DNA of 64,000 nt from Ogataea parapolymorpha DL-1. Its lineage: Eukaryota > Ascomycota > Pichiomycetes > Pichiales > Pichiaceae. Positions 5,460-14,531 of the stretch are shown here, piece after piece. The stretch spans positions 992,001-1,056,000 of the forward strand of contig NC_027861.1 of NCBI RefSeq assembly GCF_000187245.1. The letters are read 5' to 3'. The position numbers and the translations under genes are program-made. The notes beneath the pieces are model-generated. The model made no database searches. It had not been told where the DNA came from and worked only from the letters and a program-made list of their open reading frames with translations. How positions within the stretch are numbered: position 1 is the stretch's first letter; each line of letters opens with the position of its first letter.

Positions 5460-5742
5460 TGTTGAAACTTTGTTCTGATAAGTGAAATGTCTACAGTCAT
5501 TGCTCTTCCTTCAATAGTGTGACTATGTATCAGATAGTTAATATCTTTGATATACCTTAGTCCCTCTCTCATAAGTGGGATATGACACACCTTTATATAT
5601 TATTTGATTAGTCTCATATGTGATTCAGATTTGTTTCATCTGAATCTGATGCACATACTATGCATGTGCCAAGACCCACAAACCTTCACATCAGGATAAG
5701 CCGCACAGCCATGATATAATCTATGACTATCTTATCTCAACA
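5460..5742 (-). mobile_element. Solo LTR, copy A (283 bp)
   Basis: On the minus strand it begins TGTTGAGATAAG and ends AAGTTTCAACA, the TG...CA ends of a retrotransposon LTR. It is the same length as copy B and inverted relative to it. No internal retrotransposon coding sequence (gag, protease, integrase, reverse transcriptase) adjoins it, so it is a solo LTR. The left flank is GAAAC (5455-5459) and the right flank GGGAG (5743-5747); they do not match each other as a target duplication should, but the left flank is the reverse complement of the inner flank of copy B. Confidence 0.85.
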
Positions 5743-6371: not shown

Positions 6372-6654
6372 TGTTGAGATAAGATAGTCATAGATTATAT
6401 CATGGCTGTGCGGCTTATCCTGATGTGAAGGTTTGTGGGTCTTAGCACATGCATAGTATGTGCATCAGATCTAGATGATACAAATCTGGATCACATATGA
6501 GACTAACCAAATGATACATAAAGGTGTGTCATATCCCACTTATAAGTGAGGGCCTAAGGTATACTAAAGATATTAACTATCTGATACATATTCACACTAT
6601 TGTAGGAAGAATAATGACTGTAGACATTCCACTGATCAAAACTAAGTTTCAACA
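6372..6654 (+). mobile_element. Solo LTR, copy B (283 bp)
   Basis: Same family as copy A but on the plus strand, starting TGTTGAGATAAG and ending AAGTTTCAACA. Its first 96 or so bases are identical to copy A, after which scattered substitutions appear. The left flank is GTTTC (6367-6371) and the right flank TTTCC (6655-6659). It bounds, with copy A, a 629-bp segment that contains no recognisable gene. Confidence 0.85.
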
Positions 6655-9309
6655 TTTCCAACGTCACAGGTACTGCTTAGCATAAGCTCATTATTTATTC
6701 AGGAACCTTCGGGTCAGAAATTCATGATATATTTATGTTGGGATTTTCTGATAAGATTATCAAGATCAAGCGCTAGATAGCTCATATTTGAGAAATAGAC
6801 TGGTGAGTATTATTAGTGCAACTCTAATCTTCAGAAAGGGGATATTGAAGTAAAAACTTTCTCAATAAGTTTTTGCAAAAGTATCACTTTATATAGTGTC
6901 TTCTGACTACAAAAGCTCATGATGAATAATTATCACGAGCCGGAATCCTCTCAACTTAGAATAGATAGAAGGCATGACTGCATAACACAACAAGTTTTTT
7001 ACCTGAATGATCCTTAGGACAAGACCAGAAAGCCATCGGTTCACTCTAGATATCAGCTGACTATGAACAGACGAACTACTGTTTTCAAGCATTTTCATGA
7101 GTATTCAACTGCGACGTGATTAATGATTGCACAAAACCAAAACAAATTAACTGTTGTTGCTTTCTGACACACTATTGTCAATCTTACCCTTGAATATTGC
7201 GACAATTGGGCTTATTTCTATTTTGATGCAACTGTCTACTAATCCAGGTAAAGGCAAAGATTGATGCGCTTCCGATTAAGTTACAGTGTTTAGTAGTTTT
7301 TGATAGGCTATGAATCAGTATTCAATGAAAGTAATGGTAGCTTGCAATCTGAAGTGGGATATATCGAAACACTTGTTTTCTCAATGTACCTCAACGATGT
7401 GTTGGGGTCAAATCAAGAGTTAATTCAAAATGCACTTTTAAGGAGGTAATTAATAAGGTAAGGAAATACCAATATAATATAATGCTTTAGGCTAGAAAGT
7501 CTAAATAAATTTCAACGCTAGGGAGGATTGCTTTCAGATCATAGAATTCAAGACAAAAGCACAACTTCGAAACCTTACTTACTGCAGTCCATCTGCAAGC
7601 CTAAAAAGGGGTCTCCAAATATGTCAAATATGTATCTCTCGAATGCCAAGGAGTCAGACAAAAAATACCCTAAGTTCTTTTTTCCGTATAAGAAAGAGAG
7701 GATATAGATTTGTGTTTAATTTGCGAATGTGCGCCTAGAACTCAATTGAGTGTGACTGTTTTTTTATTGTCTTCGTGAACGAAGTAGGATGGGTAAGAGA
7801 ATTTCGAAGGTGTGGCACATTGTCACAGCCATAGTAGTCATACCTCTACCTCCTCATTTACCAATAAACAGTTTCAGTTGCTCAGCTGCCGCGTGATTAT
7901 TGTTTTGATTGGATTCCTTCCAAAATTACATATACAAAGCGGAAGCAGATATTTAAGGGTAAATCAAAATGTATTCTCAATCACATTGATACTGAGCAAG
8001 CCTGTTCCCTTCCACATAATGAAGGGGTAAACTCACTCTTCATAAACCCTTCATTCAACAATAGAGGATTAATCTGTGATAATAGAAATCTCGATCAACC
8101 TCTGTATCTGATCTTTGGTACTTGCACGACGATCTGTAACATCTTATTAGACCTTCTGGTAGCTAATGTACAAAACATCATATATGTTCAGTTAGGTAAA
8201 AGCAAGTTTTTAGTCCTGTCAGTCAATGTTGTGGCCTCATATTATGATGTGATGTTGATAGAAAGTTTGGACTCCTTCCTGATGAAAGGTCTCTCCAACG
8301 TATTCAAACCAAGTCTAAGATTTGGCCAGACCAATTTCATTCTTTTCGGCTCATTTTCAGTATGAAACGAATGTCTAATCTCTCAGCATTGGCAAGAGAT
8401 GATAACCACCTATCATGCAAGAAAGCAAATAGCAGTCAGACGGAGCCCTTGTGAGGTAGCCTCATTTGAAAAAGAAGAGGATAAACACTGAATGGCGATC
8501 GACCAGGCTATTCGCATGCATCTACAAGGATGCTAGACATTACGGGACATATAGAGGGAATCTTGTGGGCATCATGGCCAGAGATTTGGGAAATCGTGCG
8601 TATAGTCAGTCGTACGAAAACTCAGTCACGCGTATATTTGGGTATCTAGATAATGTGGTATGATAAAATTATCCGCATCCATCAGTTGTAGTTGAAAGAC
8701 TAATTAGCAGGAAGGATGGATAACTAACTACTATCAGAATTCGACAATGAGATACCGATACTCATATCACGGGAGTCTAATAGATCCAAAAGTCGCAGCG
8801 CTGAAAGGCGCAAAATATTTATTTGCTTTCACTTTTAAGAAACTTACTCCTGTTAAAATCTAGGCTTCCCATCCACATATTCATAGTAGCATAAATTCCA
8901 TCAAACCTTCTCTCAAGAAGCCCCACCTTCTAGCCTTTGGGAATCAAAATGCGACAGCCTCCATTGTTTTGCACACCAAAATGCATTGCACAAGCTCAGC
9001 TCATTTGAACAAATCACATATTAAGGGGACGAGGCTGATAAAAAAATGGTTAGAATGATTGGTGGTGATAATCGTGTTTAAGTGTATTGCTTTTGAGGCT
9101 TCCTTATCCGTACCGGTGGTAGTCGTGTATTGTCCAACGATAAGATCTCAAGTTTGATAAGAGGTTCCCTTCACACATTATTATTATAATGAGGATATAG
9201 AAAGGTTGGGGTGTTTGCTCTGTGATTTCCAGCGAAGCGGATATATACGATGTTTAAGCTAGCGATTGCCAATAAGTTTTGTTTAAATTTTGATTACCCG
9301 CTTCCAATC

Positions 9310-9343: not shown

Positions 9344-9496
9344 GAAAAACTTCAGCAACTGGCTTTCAGCCTCATGGACTGCAATCTATTTGAACAATAA
9401 CTAGCCTGATTATAACACAAATCCAGACTTCCAATAGTATATTAGCACTTCCAGCTTATTTGTGCGCTTTAGCTTGCCACATTTGGAGGGCATATC

Positions 9497-9744
9497 TGTT
9501 GAGATAAGATAGTCATAGACTATACCATGGCTGTGCGGCTTATCCTGATATGAAGGTTTGTGGGTCTTAGCACATGCCTAGTATGTGCATCAGATCTAGA
9601 TGATACAAATCTGGATCACATATGAGATTAACCAAATAATATATAAGGGTGTGTCATATCTCACTTATGAGAGAGGGACTAAGGTATATCAAAGATATTA
9701 ACTATCTGATACATAGTCACACTTATCAAAATTAAGTTTCAACA
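9497..9744 (+). mobile_element. Solo LTR, copy C (248 bp, internally deleted)
   Basis: Plus-strand LTR of the same family, with intact TGTTGAG and TTTCAACA ends but about 35 bp missing between the CACAC and TATCAAAATTAAG segments near the 3' end. Its first 220 or so bases are essentially identical to copy D. The flanks are ATATC (9492-9496) and ATAGT (9745-9749). They do not match each other, but each is the reverse complement of a flank of copy D. No internal element sequence is attached. Confidence 0.85.
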
Positions 9745-10572
9745 ATAGTAGAGGGTTGCTGTTTTTTCACATTCAATAAGAGAGGAAGCCCAATGTCAAA
9801 TAAGGAATGAGAAATTTTTATTGACGACCGGTAACCTCAATTTAGTAATCACAAATGATTATTCATGATGTACTTTAAAATCTATCCCACATGGGAGCTA
9901 TTATTATTATCACTTGGGATTTTGCAGCCTACTGAATTATCTGAGTTTCACCTACCGGAGATATTATCATACATCCCTTGTATGTCTTTAGTTGGTTTCG
10001 CAATAACTAAGGGCAATAAAATTTACAGCATGCTTTTTTATCTTGTACCTCATACTCCCGTAACGTGGAGAAATTATGACTATTTTGTCTTAACACAAAC
10101 AGAAGATTAGATATAATGTTCGGGAACGGGAAGCTGGGAACAAAGCAACAATCTTTAAATTGGTAAGTCTGATAGAACTTGGCTCGTTCTTTAGCCGTAA
10201 CAATGAACATCAGTAAACACTACTTCGAACCTTAAATGAGTTTGCCTTTACGGGCAAGAGATCGTTGATTTAGTCAGACATCTTCAATGAAGAGGAGGCC
10301 ACCAATCAGTATCTATGCTCCTAAGATGAAACCAGTTCTTTAGAGGCTCTTGTAACTGCAACCTCAAAGCATCTGCCTTAGCAAATTAGATAAAGAACAT
10401 TCTCCTCCTCCAAAACCTTTGTAACGGTGTATACAGGTATCTTAAGCAAGTACAATCAACAATGTACTGTTGCATAGTTACTGACTGGGCTATAGTATGC
10501 TTGCTAATCATCAATATAACGCTATCTGTCAAGATGAGCTAATGACGTATTTAATCTCAATTTGGAAGATAT

Positions 10573-10853
10573 TGTTGAAACTTAATTTTGGTCAGTGAAA
10601 TGCCTACATTCATTATTCTTCCTACAATAGTGTGACTATGTCAGATAGTTAATATCTTTGATATACCTTAGTCCCTCTCTCATAAGTGAGATATGACACA
10701 CCCTTATATATTATTTGGTTAATCTCATATGTGATCCAGATTTGTATCATCTAGATCTGATGCACATACTAGGCATGTGCTAAGACCCACAAACCTTCAT
10801 ATCAGGATAAGCCGCACAGCCATGGTATAGTCTATGACTATCTTATCTCAACA
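10573..10853 (-). mobile_element. Solo LTR, copy D (281 bp)
   Basis: Minus-strand LTR nearly identical to copy C through its 5' part, but retaining the segment deleted in C. It has its own 2-bp deletion (CTGACATAG against CTGATACATAG). The flanks are GATAT (10568-10572) and ACTAT (10854-10858), the reverse complements of the outer and inner flanks of copy C. Copies C and D enclose 828 bp without a recognisable gene. Confidence 0.85.
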
Positions 10854-13455
10854 ACTATACTATATTAGTGAAGAATCTTTGAGGATCGTTCTTTGCTAGA
10901 ATAATGTCCAAGGAAGCAAATTTGCGGCTGTTCATGGTAATCGGAAAATATACTATATCCATATTGATCTCTGCTTCGAATCCACATACTTTGCGTATGT
11001 ACAGAATCTCTGCGAGAAAGAATATGTGTAGGCAACTGCAAGCTCAAATGGAGCCATATTCATTTTCCCGTTGATGTTACTTGCATAGATTTTTGATTCT
11101 TAATGAGCGGTAGCCAGCTAGTTGACCATCGTCCTATATTAGCTATTGAACTAATGAAAAAAATATTTGCTAATGATTCATTTCAAGTTAACATAGCACG
11201 AAGGATAATTGAGTTATAGTACTGTGAAAAGTTGTTTTTAGGTTTTCAGCATTGGATATTGCAATAGAAATTCTGATTTGAAACTCGAAGATGAATCGAA
11301 AATACAAATCAAGATGTTGTGTCGTACTGGAATTAAATTAGATTCCACATGTAGTACAAAAAGCAGGAAAACATGTAAGGTTTGATTTATGTCCCTAGCT
11401 GCATATTCTAGAGAATTGCCCAGCTAACTGTAATAAAAGTATTCTCAACACCTTCACACCTTCAATGGAAGAGCAAATGCACAGGTGATTCCCCACTCCC
11501 AAGTTTGAAAAAGCTTTTCTCTAGGAAGGTAGATCTTAACGTTAATTGTTGAAAGAATACAATCATGCATTCCATCCTGAACTGAAGGGTGTGTGGCTCA
11601 CATATTATAAGGTTTGATTGTGTGTCTAATAATCATGATACCAATCTGAAACACACCGTATACTACCTGAACTAAGATACAAGATCTCTTTACGTCGTTG
11701 GTGGAGAACCATATACACCAAAACTGAAAACCAAAGAAGCAAAAGATGAAAGAGCACTTGCTAGTCGCCAGGTGTATTAATGTTCAGAGTGTCAGCTTTT
11801 AATCTCTACAGTTATTCTATTTAGGGATTCCTGAATGATTTTTTTAAATGCCCAGAAATCCCAAGTTTGGCTTCTTTCATAGAATTTTGCCTCTTGTGGA
11901 CAATTATGATAGACGGTAGTTTATAAGCTTGAAAGCTACGCTTCAAAGCGGATGGATTCACTGCAAAACCATTCCAGCAATCGTTAATAAGGCGTACCGA
12001 TTTACAGCTGTACCTTCAATAATGACTTGGCTGACTTGTGGTACCTTCCGCTTTTGTTAGATTTGTTTGGATTATCAATATAAAATGGATATGTATCAAA
12101 GACTGACTTTTTTCACAGGCAAAAAGTAGACTTGAATAGCAGCATGTTTCAAAGGCACTCTATCCACAGTTCGAATATGTTGCTCCGGAGAATAACAATC
12201 ATGCTTTGTGACAAAGCTAAAGCTGTATTCTGGCATTGTAACTATGAGAATTAATACTTTATGGAGCCAGTGAGAATAATTGATTCGATAATCCCTGACA
12301 GAAACATTATCCAAAGGTCAACTGGTCAATTGTGAGCACCAGCTGTTTATTCTACCAATATTTTTTTTGACCACAAAACATGTAGCCGATGTTACAGATA
12401 TCTGAGTTTTTAAAGACCCGATATCAGAGGTGTACAGACTATGTAGTAGTACACTGCATATGTGTATACCGATAAGGAACTGGATTCAAAACAAAAAAGT
12501 TCTTTGATAAAGCCCGGGGTAACAAAACTTAACTAGTGACCAGTTGATCAGAAAGTATTCTCAAAGCTTTCTGCTTTTGTTCTCTATTCTTAAGTCTTTG
12601 AAGAGACTAACGTGTCGTACTGATTAGAGTCAGCTGTCTTCGTGGGCATGCTTGTAGACCTATGGTTTTACTTTACAAGGGTAGTTATCATAGGGTATGA
12701 CCTTCGAAGCTTGAATAGTAATTCAAGTATTTGAGGCTCGCTTTCAAAGGTTAGATCTTGAACCACATACCTTTTTAGCCACAATAAACTTAAACTGATC
12801 GAACCTCTCAGCGGATGAGATTCAAGAAATTTTATGTCTTCGTTCTTCAATGGTAATAAATTTTGTTCTAAGCCTCCGTGCTTTGAAAAAAATAGTGTAT
12901 CAAGCACGCAATCCCCAAAAGGTTGCTGAAGGTAGATCTTAAAATTAATTCATGAGTACATGTATTTTGAAAAATGGCCAGTGGTGTAGCAAAGTGTATT
13001 TTTACTTCAGTTACCTATGACATGATTCATGATAGAATTGGTAGTAAATGCAGTGCAAGAAAGACACAAACTGCTTTATAACTAAACTACTTTTGTCTAA
13101 AAGTTGAATTAGACTGGTCATCACAATAGCAAGCTGTGATGGGAATCTGCTAGAATTGGCTTTGGAAAAAGAAGGGCCAACGGTTAAAGATTTAATGTAT
13201 CTGTAAACTTCTATTATTGACTCAGAGACTTCTAAAATAGGTGAGGCTTCCAGGTTTATATAAAATATCCGACGTCAAACGGTTATGTCCGCTTGTCGAA
13301 TTGCTTCAACATGTTATGTCTGGTCCTTAAACGTTGCGACTCGGTTGAAGTAAATAGCTGAATCATCTGAACAGGTCACAAAACAGTATCTATCAATTTA
13401 CTGACTGCTTTTAGAGGAAGGTTGATGTCAAGAATATAATAATAAACTCTCAAAG

Positions 13456-13473: not shown

Positions 13474-13545
13474 CTCCGAGACCGGGAATTGAACCCGGGT
13501 CTCCCGCGTGACAAGCGAGAATTCTAACCACTAAACTATCTCGGA
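13474..13545 (-). tRNA. tRNA-Asp(GTC), left copy
   Basis: This is a 72-nt tRNA without intron. The acceptor stem TCCGAGA pairs with TCTCGGA, the discriminator is G, and the anticodon loop CTTGTCACG carries GTC in a paired stem. The T loop GTTCAATTC and a D arm with A-box bases GTTTAGTGGTTAG are present. The length and sequence resemble Saccharomyces tRNA-Asp closely. It is identical to the copy at 14460-14531 but inverted. It lies at the right edge of the gene-free region, where tRNA genes in other fungi can act as chromatin boundaries (known for fission yeast, inferred here). Confidence 0.97.
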
Positions 13546-14459: not shown

Positions 14460-14531
14460 TCCGAGATAGTTTAGTGGTTAGAATTCTCGCTTGTCACGCG
14501 GGAGACCCGGGTTCAATTCCCGGTCTCGGAG
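14460..14531 (+). tRNA. tRNA-Asp(GTC), right copy
   Basis: This copy is identical over all 72 nt to the one at 13474-13545, in inverted orientation, with the acceptor stem, GTC anticodon, A and B boxes and G discriminator intact. No CCA is encoded, as expected for a nuclear eukaryotic tRNA gene. Downstream, a T7 tract ends transcription. Confidence 0.97.

Follow-up and report, generated by a model that had tools for sequence, protein, structure and literature searches.

Exchanged flanks of two inverted LTRs on chromosome 6

The window analysed here is a stretch of 64,000 nucleotides of the Ogataea parapolymorpha DL-1 genome (contig NC_027861.1, positions 992,001 to 1,056,000, chromosome 6). 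It contains a cluster of long terminal repeats (LTRs), two of which, LTR C and LTR D, stand in opposite orientation on either side of a segment of 828 bp. The 5-bp target-site duplications of these two LTRs are exchanged, and the segment between them has probably been inverted. The following features are concerned (positions in the window):

9492-9496: 5-bp flank ATATC, which would be the outer duplication copy of an insertion X (window sequence)
9497-9744, plus strand: LTR C, 248 bp, TGTTG...CAACA, with a gap of ~36 bp relative to LTR D near the 3′ end
9745-9749: 5-bp flank ATAGT, the reverse complement of ACTAT, which would be the inner duplication copy of an insertion Y
9745-10572: segment of 828 bp, A+T 63.5%, probably inverted
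10568-10572: 5-bp flank GATAT, the reverse complement of ATATC, which would be the inner duplication copy of insertion X
10573-10853, minus strand: LTR D, 281 bp
10854-10858: 5-bp flank ACTAT, which would be the outer duplication copy of insertion Y

The original prediction had claimed that the flanks of LTR C and LTR D are swapped and that inverting the 828 bp between the LTRs restores both duplications. Reading the flanks from the window sequence confirms the first claim exactly, as LTR C has ATATC on its left and ATAGT on its right and LTR D has GATAT on its left and ACTAT on its right. The second claim was reproduced in silico, the inversion yielding ATATC/ATATC and ACTAT/ACTAT. The region contains an inverted repeat of 218 nt at 99%. 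The first 213 nt of the two LTRs are identical, and a pairwise alignment shows 0 substitutions in 245 aligned positions; LTR C has a gap of ~36 bp relative to LTR D near the 3′ end, where there are also two smaller indels. Within the segment there are only two open reading frames (ORFs), both short (81 and 67 amino acids) and not judged to be genes. It has no Rfam match and no other match in the genome.

Element family and LTR clusters

We searched the genome (7 contigs with 8,874,589 bases, the window being on contig 6) with LTR C and LTR D. Each search gave at least 31 matches, which form one cluster per contig on 7/7 contigs, and among the matches listed none is outside these seven clusters, which make up 0.68% of the genome. 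Putative centromeres of the DL-1 chromosomes have been inferred from AT-rich LTR clusters, and about half of the Ty/copia sequences are located in those putative centromeric clusters (PMC3866509). Judging from the single cluster per chromosome together with this published inference, the seven LTR clusters correspond to the putative centromeres.

The full-length element on chromosome 3 matches PF17241 (Ty5 Gag, E 2.8e-40) and PF07727 (RVT_2, E 8.2e-87), and by these sequence matches the family of LTR C and LTR D is classified as Ty5-like (Ty1/copia). The sequence GGTTATGAGCCC is found after the 5′ LTRs, where it may correspond to a tRNA sequence. The related elements of Ogataea polymorpha CBS4732 are of the Ty5 type, and the DL-1 LTRs of 282 bp are described as distinct from those (PMC9019687).

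Survey of target-site duplications

The survey set comprised 29 LTRs representing 27 insertions, two elements being full-length. For 8/29 LTRs the BLAST end was shifted to the evident LTR terminus and for 2/29 a tandem 5′ piece was merged. That each LTR insertion should carry the same 5 bp on both sides, as had been presumed, holds perfectly for 15 of the 27 insertions in the seven clusters (three of the 15 depend on LTR ends shifted by 1-5 nt from the BLAST end). No 5-mer recurs among these 15 duplications, so there is no sign of a strong target preference. In one further insertion the duplication differs at one base (GGCTT/GACTT). Unmatched flanks (n=10) were found for LTR C, LTR D, the two LTRs of a pair on chromosome 7, LTR A, the LTRs C3 915402, C4 444577 and C5 448888, and the two full-length elements. 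The other LTRs of the family in the window and the full-length elements are:

5460-5742, minus strand: LTR A, LTR C/D family, flanks CTCCC/TTCTG, no matching duplication
6372-6654, plus strand: LTR B, LTR C/D family, flanks GTTTC/TTTCC, a 4-nt TTTC match shifted by one base
C1:318406-322987: full-length element of the main family, end flanks GCTTC/GTCTA unmatched
C3:920303-924866: full-length element of the main family, end flanks GAGAT/TGGAG unmatched

A random pair of 5-mers from cluster DNA is identical with p=0.00134, which gives 1.8e-6 for a double match per pair. We compared left with right flanks across all 351 pairs of insertions and in these 702 comparisons observed 3 matches where 0.94 are expected. 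Two of the three constitute the exchange between LTR C and LTR D and the third joins the LTRs 565361(+) and 569802(-) on contig 7, so that all three fall into two pairs with both LTRs on the same contig and on opposite strands, of which there are 27 in total. A full exchange at the canonical LTR ends occurs in 1/351 pairs, namely C/D only. By chance, 4.8e-5 double exchanges are expected if the 27 pairs on one contig and opposite strands are counted, and 6e-4 if all 351 pairs are. The exchange between LTR C and LTR D is more than chance. The figure of one in a million originally given for such a coincidence is appropriate for a single pair; over the eligible pairs it becomes ~5 in 100,000.

A second pair on chromosome 7

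The pair on chromosome 7 is located at C7:565361-570082 with ~4.2 kb between the LTRs. LTR 565361(+) has CCAAG on its left, and LTR 569802(-) has, in LTR orientation, the flanks AATCT and CCAAG. The 3′ end of LTR 565361 reads ...AAAACAAATCTCAACAAAACT, which fits a loss of ~10 nt from the LTR end before AATCT. The exchange is therefore exact for CCAAG and is seen for AATCT only after the inferred terminal deletion of ~10 nt in LTR 565361. Between the two LTRs there are one LTR with an intact duplication and one copy of a motif of ~26 nt, which is described below.

Once the LTRs are masked, homologous blocks of non-LTR DNA are seen in clusters 2, 4 and 7. Clusters 4 and 2 are contiguous through ...GAAGCCCCCAAGTGTGAATTGTAGGG... 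(...CTTAAGACTGAAGCCCCCAAGTGTGAATTGTAGGGTACG...) with no LTR inside. On chromosome 7 the left half of this site ends in CCAAG at the outer side of LTR 565361, and the right half begins with CCAAG at the inner side of LTR 569802, 4.4 kb off and on the other strand. This sequence comparison shows clusters 2 and 4 to represent the empty site for one of the chromosome-7 insertions, and thereby that the two flanks of this insertion were formerly adjacent. For the other breakpoint pair on chromosome 7 there is no paralogue with an empty site, and cluster 7 is rearranged further relative to clusters 2 and 4. Taken with the flanks, the pair 565361+/569802- probably underwent an LTR inversion as well. 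In all, ~2.5-3.0 kb of non-LTR DNA are common to clusters 2, 4 and 7 at 85-95%, with the order rearranged in cluster 7; the longest stop-to-stop frame in the cluster-2 copy of the shared block has 114 amino acids.

Likeness among the LTRs

We aligned all 406 pairs of the surveyed LTRs pairwise. No pair is less diverged than the two exchanged ones, with 0/245 substitutions for C/D and 4/280 for the chromosome-7 pair; the next pair has 5/283, and the median divergence is 7.7%. The exchanged pairs also possess the longest identical tracts of the 406 pairs (256 nt for the chromosome-7 pair and 213 nt for C/D), and the third-longest tract, 143 nt, is found between both LTRs of one full-length element. 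The near-identity of the exchanged pairs fits homogenisation along with crossover. Because there are no substitutions between LTR C and LTR D in the 245 positions, the parts of a possible chimera cannot be told apart.

Likeness within a contig is also seen beyond these pairs. The mean LTR divergence is 0.089 within contigs and 0.107 between contigs, a difference reached in 3/5000 shuffles. For 12/29 LTRs the nearest relative is on the same contig, where 3.7 are expected (8/5000 label shuffles reach this). Both results come from a multiple alignment that misplaces the tail of LTR C.

Probable inversion by crossover and its alternatives

We consider it likely that the inverted LTRs C and D underwent homologous crossover, which turned the segment between them round an odd net number of times, and the chromosome-7 pair was probably rearranged likewise. 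Two Ty5-like elements would have inserted independently and in opposite orientation into the centromeric cluster of chromosome 6, with duplication of ATATC at one site and of ACTAT at the other, and each would have collapsed to a solo LTR. The 828 bp would then have been inverted by a crossover, for which either the LTRs themselves or, prior to the collapse, the full-length precursors may have served as substrate. Such a crossover flips what stands between the repeats and would swap the inner duplications between C and D. The crossover event, its timing and its exact substrate are what we infer from the exchanged flanks, and the duplications give the parity only, i.e., an odd number of flips and not necessarily one.

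Several points weigh against this interpretation. The C/D inversion is read from one 454 assembly of one strain and in one orientation. The near-identity of LTR C and LTR D might also reflect two recent sister insertions, and the exchanged pairs are those which an assembler would confuse most easily. The search for a paralogous empty site of C/D gave nothing convincing, whether among the seven LTR clusters (best E 0.11 over 24-32 nt) or in the genome, and the case of C/D therefore rests on ten bases and on the near-identity of the LTRs. The block common to clusters 2, 4 and 7 matches cluster 6 by blastn at 58-72% over 53-223 bp (E 2e-5 to 0.06), and nhmmer finds no similarity between them; this is too poor to order C/D. 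For the chromosome-7 pair, the deletion before AATCT was chosen post hoc, and 6.8% of random 35-nt windows contain AATCT. In the 702 comparisons chance alone would give about one cross-match of the CCAAG kind, so the weight of this pair comes mainly from the paralogous empty sites. A GENECONV-like column-shuffle run test that had seemed to favour conversion between LTR C and LTR D had to be discarded as invalid, since MAFFT had put the tail of LTR C into wrong columns; it gave 21/406 pairs with p<=0.001 (uncorrected), 11 of the 21 being on one contig where 13% are expected, all from this misaligned set. For C/D it was replaced by the pairwise alignments.

The true order could be the un-inverted one if the assembler had placed the segment between near-identical inverted LTRs backwards. 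The 454 shotgun reads averaged 326 bp, and the 8-kb paired-end library hardly orients 828 bp (PMC3866509). The exchanged pairs own the longest identical tracts of the 406 LTR pairs; misassembled LTR elements have been reported for the related NCYC495 assembly, and the DL-1 reference has been described as incomplete and as error-rich towards the chromosome ends (PMC9019687). We estimate, however, that ~12 reads span the 213-nt tract and ~8 the 256-nt tract (calculated for 424 Mb of shotgun sequence, with a read-length standard deviation of 100 assumed and 20 nt of unique flank required at either end), and the order should therefore have been resolvable. Moreover, the exchanged LTRs differ near one end, and chromosomes 6 and 7 are single contigs in the published assembly (PMC3866509). 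We thus regard an assembly artefact as improbable, albeit not negligible. Nevertheless, as a mis-orientation of this kind would look the same and as the duplications reveal parity only, the exchanged duplications do not prove the inversion, as had been stated originally; the second case and the near-identity of the LTRs do support it.

A chance match of all four 5-mers, or a match brought about by target preference and without any inversion, is very improbable. An unmatched LTR is in itself not rare, 12/27 insertions having no perfect duplication, but for the 27 eligible pairs only 4.8e-5 double exchanges are expected, no two of the 15 perfect duplications are alike, and the exchanged pairs are at the same time the LTRs most alike. 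Even less credible, and practically to be dismissed, is a single composite insertion consisting of two inverted LTRs and captured DNA. It would account for near-identical LTRs in inverted orientation; a single insertion would give equal outer flanks, though, and ATATC and ACTAT differ, which contradicts it. A variant of the crossover interpretation is that full-length inverted Ty5-like elements recombined and collapsed to solo LTRs afterwards. Their homology of 4.6 kb is a larger target. The full-length elements on C1 and C3 have mismatched end duplications, and the LTRs of the C1 element are unlike (242 vs 339 bp, the longer one with a tandem start of ~71 bp), as recombinants would be; this suggests that both elements are recombinant. 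This variant alone leaves the likeness of the C/D and chromosome-7 LTRs unexplained, and we think it rather unlikely, although it deserves some weight. No function of the C/D inversion is indicated.

A short motif common to the clusters

Outside the LTRs the LTR-masked clusters have a short sequence in common. With six copies as input (one each from clusters 2, 4, 5 and 7 and two from cluster 3), a profile recovers the held-out copies of cluster 6 (E 7.5e-10 and 1e-6) and of cluster 1 (8.5e-7 and 1.2e-5); in 44 kb of non-cluster DNA of the window it finds nothing better than E 0.23. Weaker profile matches exist and were left out of the counts. The 26-nt pattern ATCCYRAGYTSARAGGTWTGCGGCTC, written after the copies were seen, has with <=3 mismatches 13 matches genome-wide, and 13/13 are inside the seven LTR clusters, with all seven contigs represented, while the reversed pattern as a control has 0 matches genome-wide. 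The 15-nt core is unspecific (85 matches with <=2 mismatches vs 64 for the control), 5/6 exact matches being in clusters. When the 106-nt region of one copy served as the query of a BLAST-type search, only that region itself was returned, and across the 14 copies the conservation drops to about background beyond ~30 nt. Three copies share one paralogous block and are therefore not independent. The two copies in the cluster of the window are:

6937-6962, minus strand: copy of the ~26-nt motif (C6:998937), 3 mismatches, pattern match
11574-11599, plus strand: copy of the ~26-nt motif, profile E 7.5e-10 over 11557-11617, no ATCCYRAGYTSARAGGTWTGCGGCTC pattern match

Both are outside the segment between LTR C and LTR D, so the C/D inversion leaves them unmoved. 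Clusters 1, 2, 4 and 6 have two copies in opposite orientation, cluster 3 has three (-,-,+) and cluster 5 one. In the assembled order the two copies of cluster 7 point the same way; turning the inverted segment back would set them opposite to each other, which agrees weakly with the chromosome-7 inversion. An origin of the motif as a relic of the LTR was considered but not borne out; 2/29 LTRs score above the 99% level of a shuffled LTR, and the profile matched one LTR with E 0.019. By its distribution the motif is a candidate centromere element.

Meiotic recombination is suppressed near the centromeres of Saccharomyces cerevisiae (PMC8496258). Yet in DL-1 two of the seven LTR clusters appear to be marked by LTR inversion, and the LTRs resemble their neighbours on the same chromosome beyond chance. 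Keeping account of the 5-bp duplications provides a record of rearrangements in LTR-cluster centromeres that can be read from a single genome, and the cluster-specific motif provides a concrete candidate element for centromeres which, in the literature seen, have so far been described only as LTR clusters. As a tentative and perhaps doubtful generalisation, the LTR-cluster centromeres of DL-1 might be prone to flipping, inverted neighbours being homogenised and recombining repeatedly, with orientations changing and perhaps coexisting in culture, and they might be motif-bearing and not featureless. If the motif recruits the kinetochore, LTR inversion would make and unmake centromeres with an inverted pair of motifs, and the chromosome-7 inversion would have flipped one copy.

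Other features

Two tRNA-Asp genes in inverted arrangement, at 13474-13545 (-) and 14460-14531 (+), are situated at the right edge of the gene-poor region, and the window encodes a protein of the CHS5 family (Pfam) that is 88% identical to its Ogataea polymorpha counterpart. Candidates for point-centromere elements were discarded: a CDEIII-like pattern has 18 matches in the window vs 14.9 expected, and a CDEI/CDEIII pairing gave a single poor candidate in cluster 3. A second LTR family is represented by a young full-length element at C2:345826-350477 and C5:453859-458510; the copies align over 4652 bp at 99.98%, have terminal repeats of 264-266 bp and carry perfect 5-bp duplications at both sites. 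In the LTRs at C6:997460, C1:314115 and C4:444577, GTTTCAAC recurs at the 3′ end, 9-11 nt past its first occurrence.

Comparison with known systems

Exchanged target-site duplications have been read as the mark of ectopic recombination for the Galileo inversion 2z3 of Drosophila buzzatii (PMC2775673). As with LTR C and LTR D, inverted copies of one element bound the inverted segment and their duplications are exchanged. Galileo, unlike the present element, is a DNA transposon with 7-bp duplications, and the inversion is polymorphic; the un-inverted chromosome and the chimeric copies were demonstrated there (PMC2775673), whereas C/D is known from one assembled orientation.

The flip/flop region of Saccharomyces chromosome XIV is similar in that homogenised inverted repeats near the centromere bring about recurrent inversion (PMC9731477). 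There the repeats are 4-kb gene repeats, the segment has 24 kb and 15 genes, and both orientations occur in strains (PMC9731477); in the Ogataea cases the repeats are LTRs of ~0.25 kb with 0.8-4.2 kb between them, and one orientation is seen. In the same genus, mating-type (MAT) switching of Ogataea polymorpha is an inversion by inverted-repeat recombination beside a centromere, in this case a programmed inversion of 19 kb between 2-kb repeats (PMC8496258). A programmed inversion of the MAT kind would involve genes with orientation-dependent expression; in the C/D segment only the two short ORFs and no Rfam match were found, i.e., no gene and no sign of regulation.

Ty5-like LTR clusters have been described at the centromeres of O. 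polymorpha, Cyberlindnera sargentensis and others (PMC12711049). The main text of that study does not use the terms 'target site duplication' and 'gene conversion', and where it deals with O. polymorpha no shared motif is mentioned. In the literature covered, which included few subscription papers and no supplements, we found neither published exchanged duplications at a yeast centromere nor a published shared motif of Ogataea centromeres. The mechanism of inversion is already known from Galileo, and a yeast genome with LTR-cluster centromeres and two probable events of this kind adds a new example.

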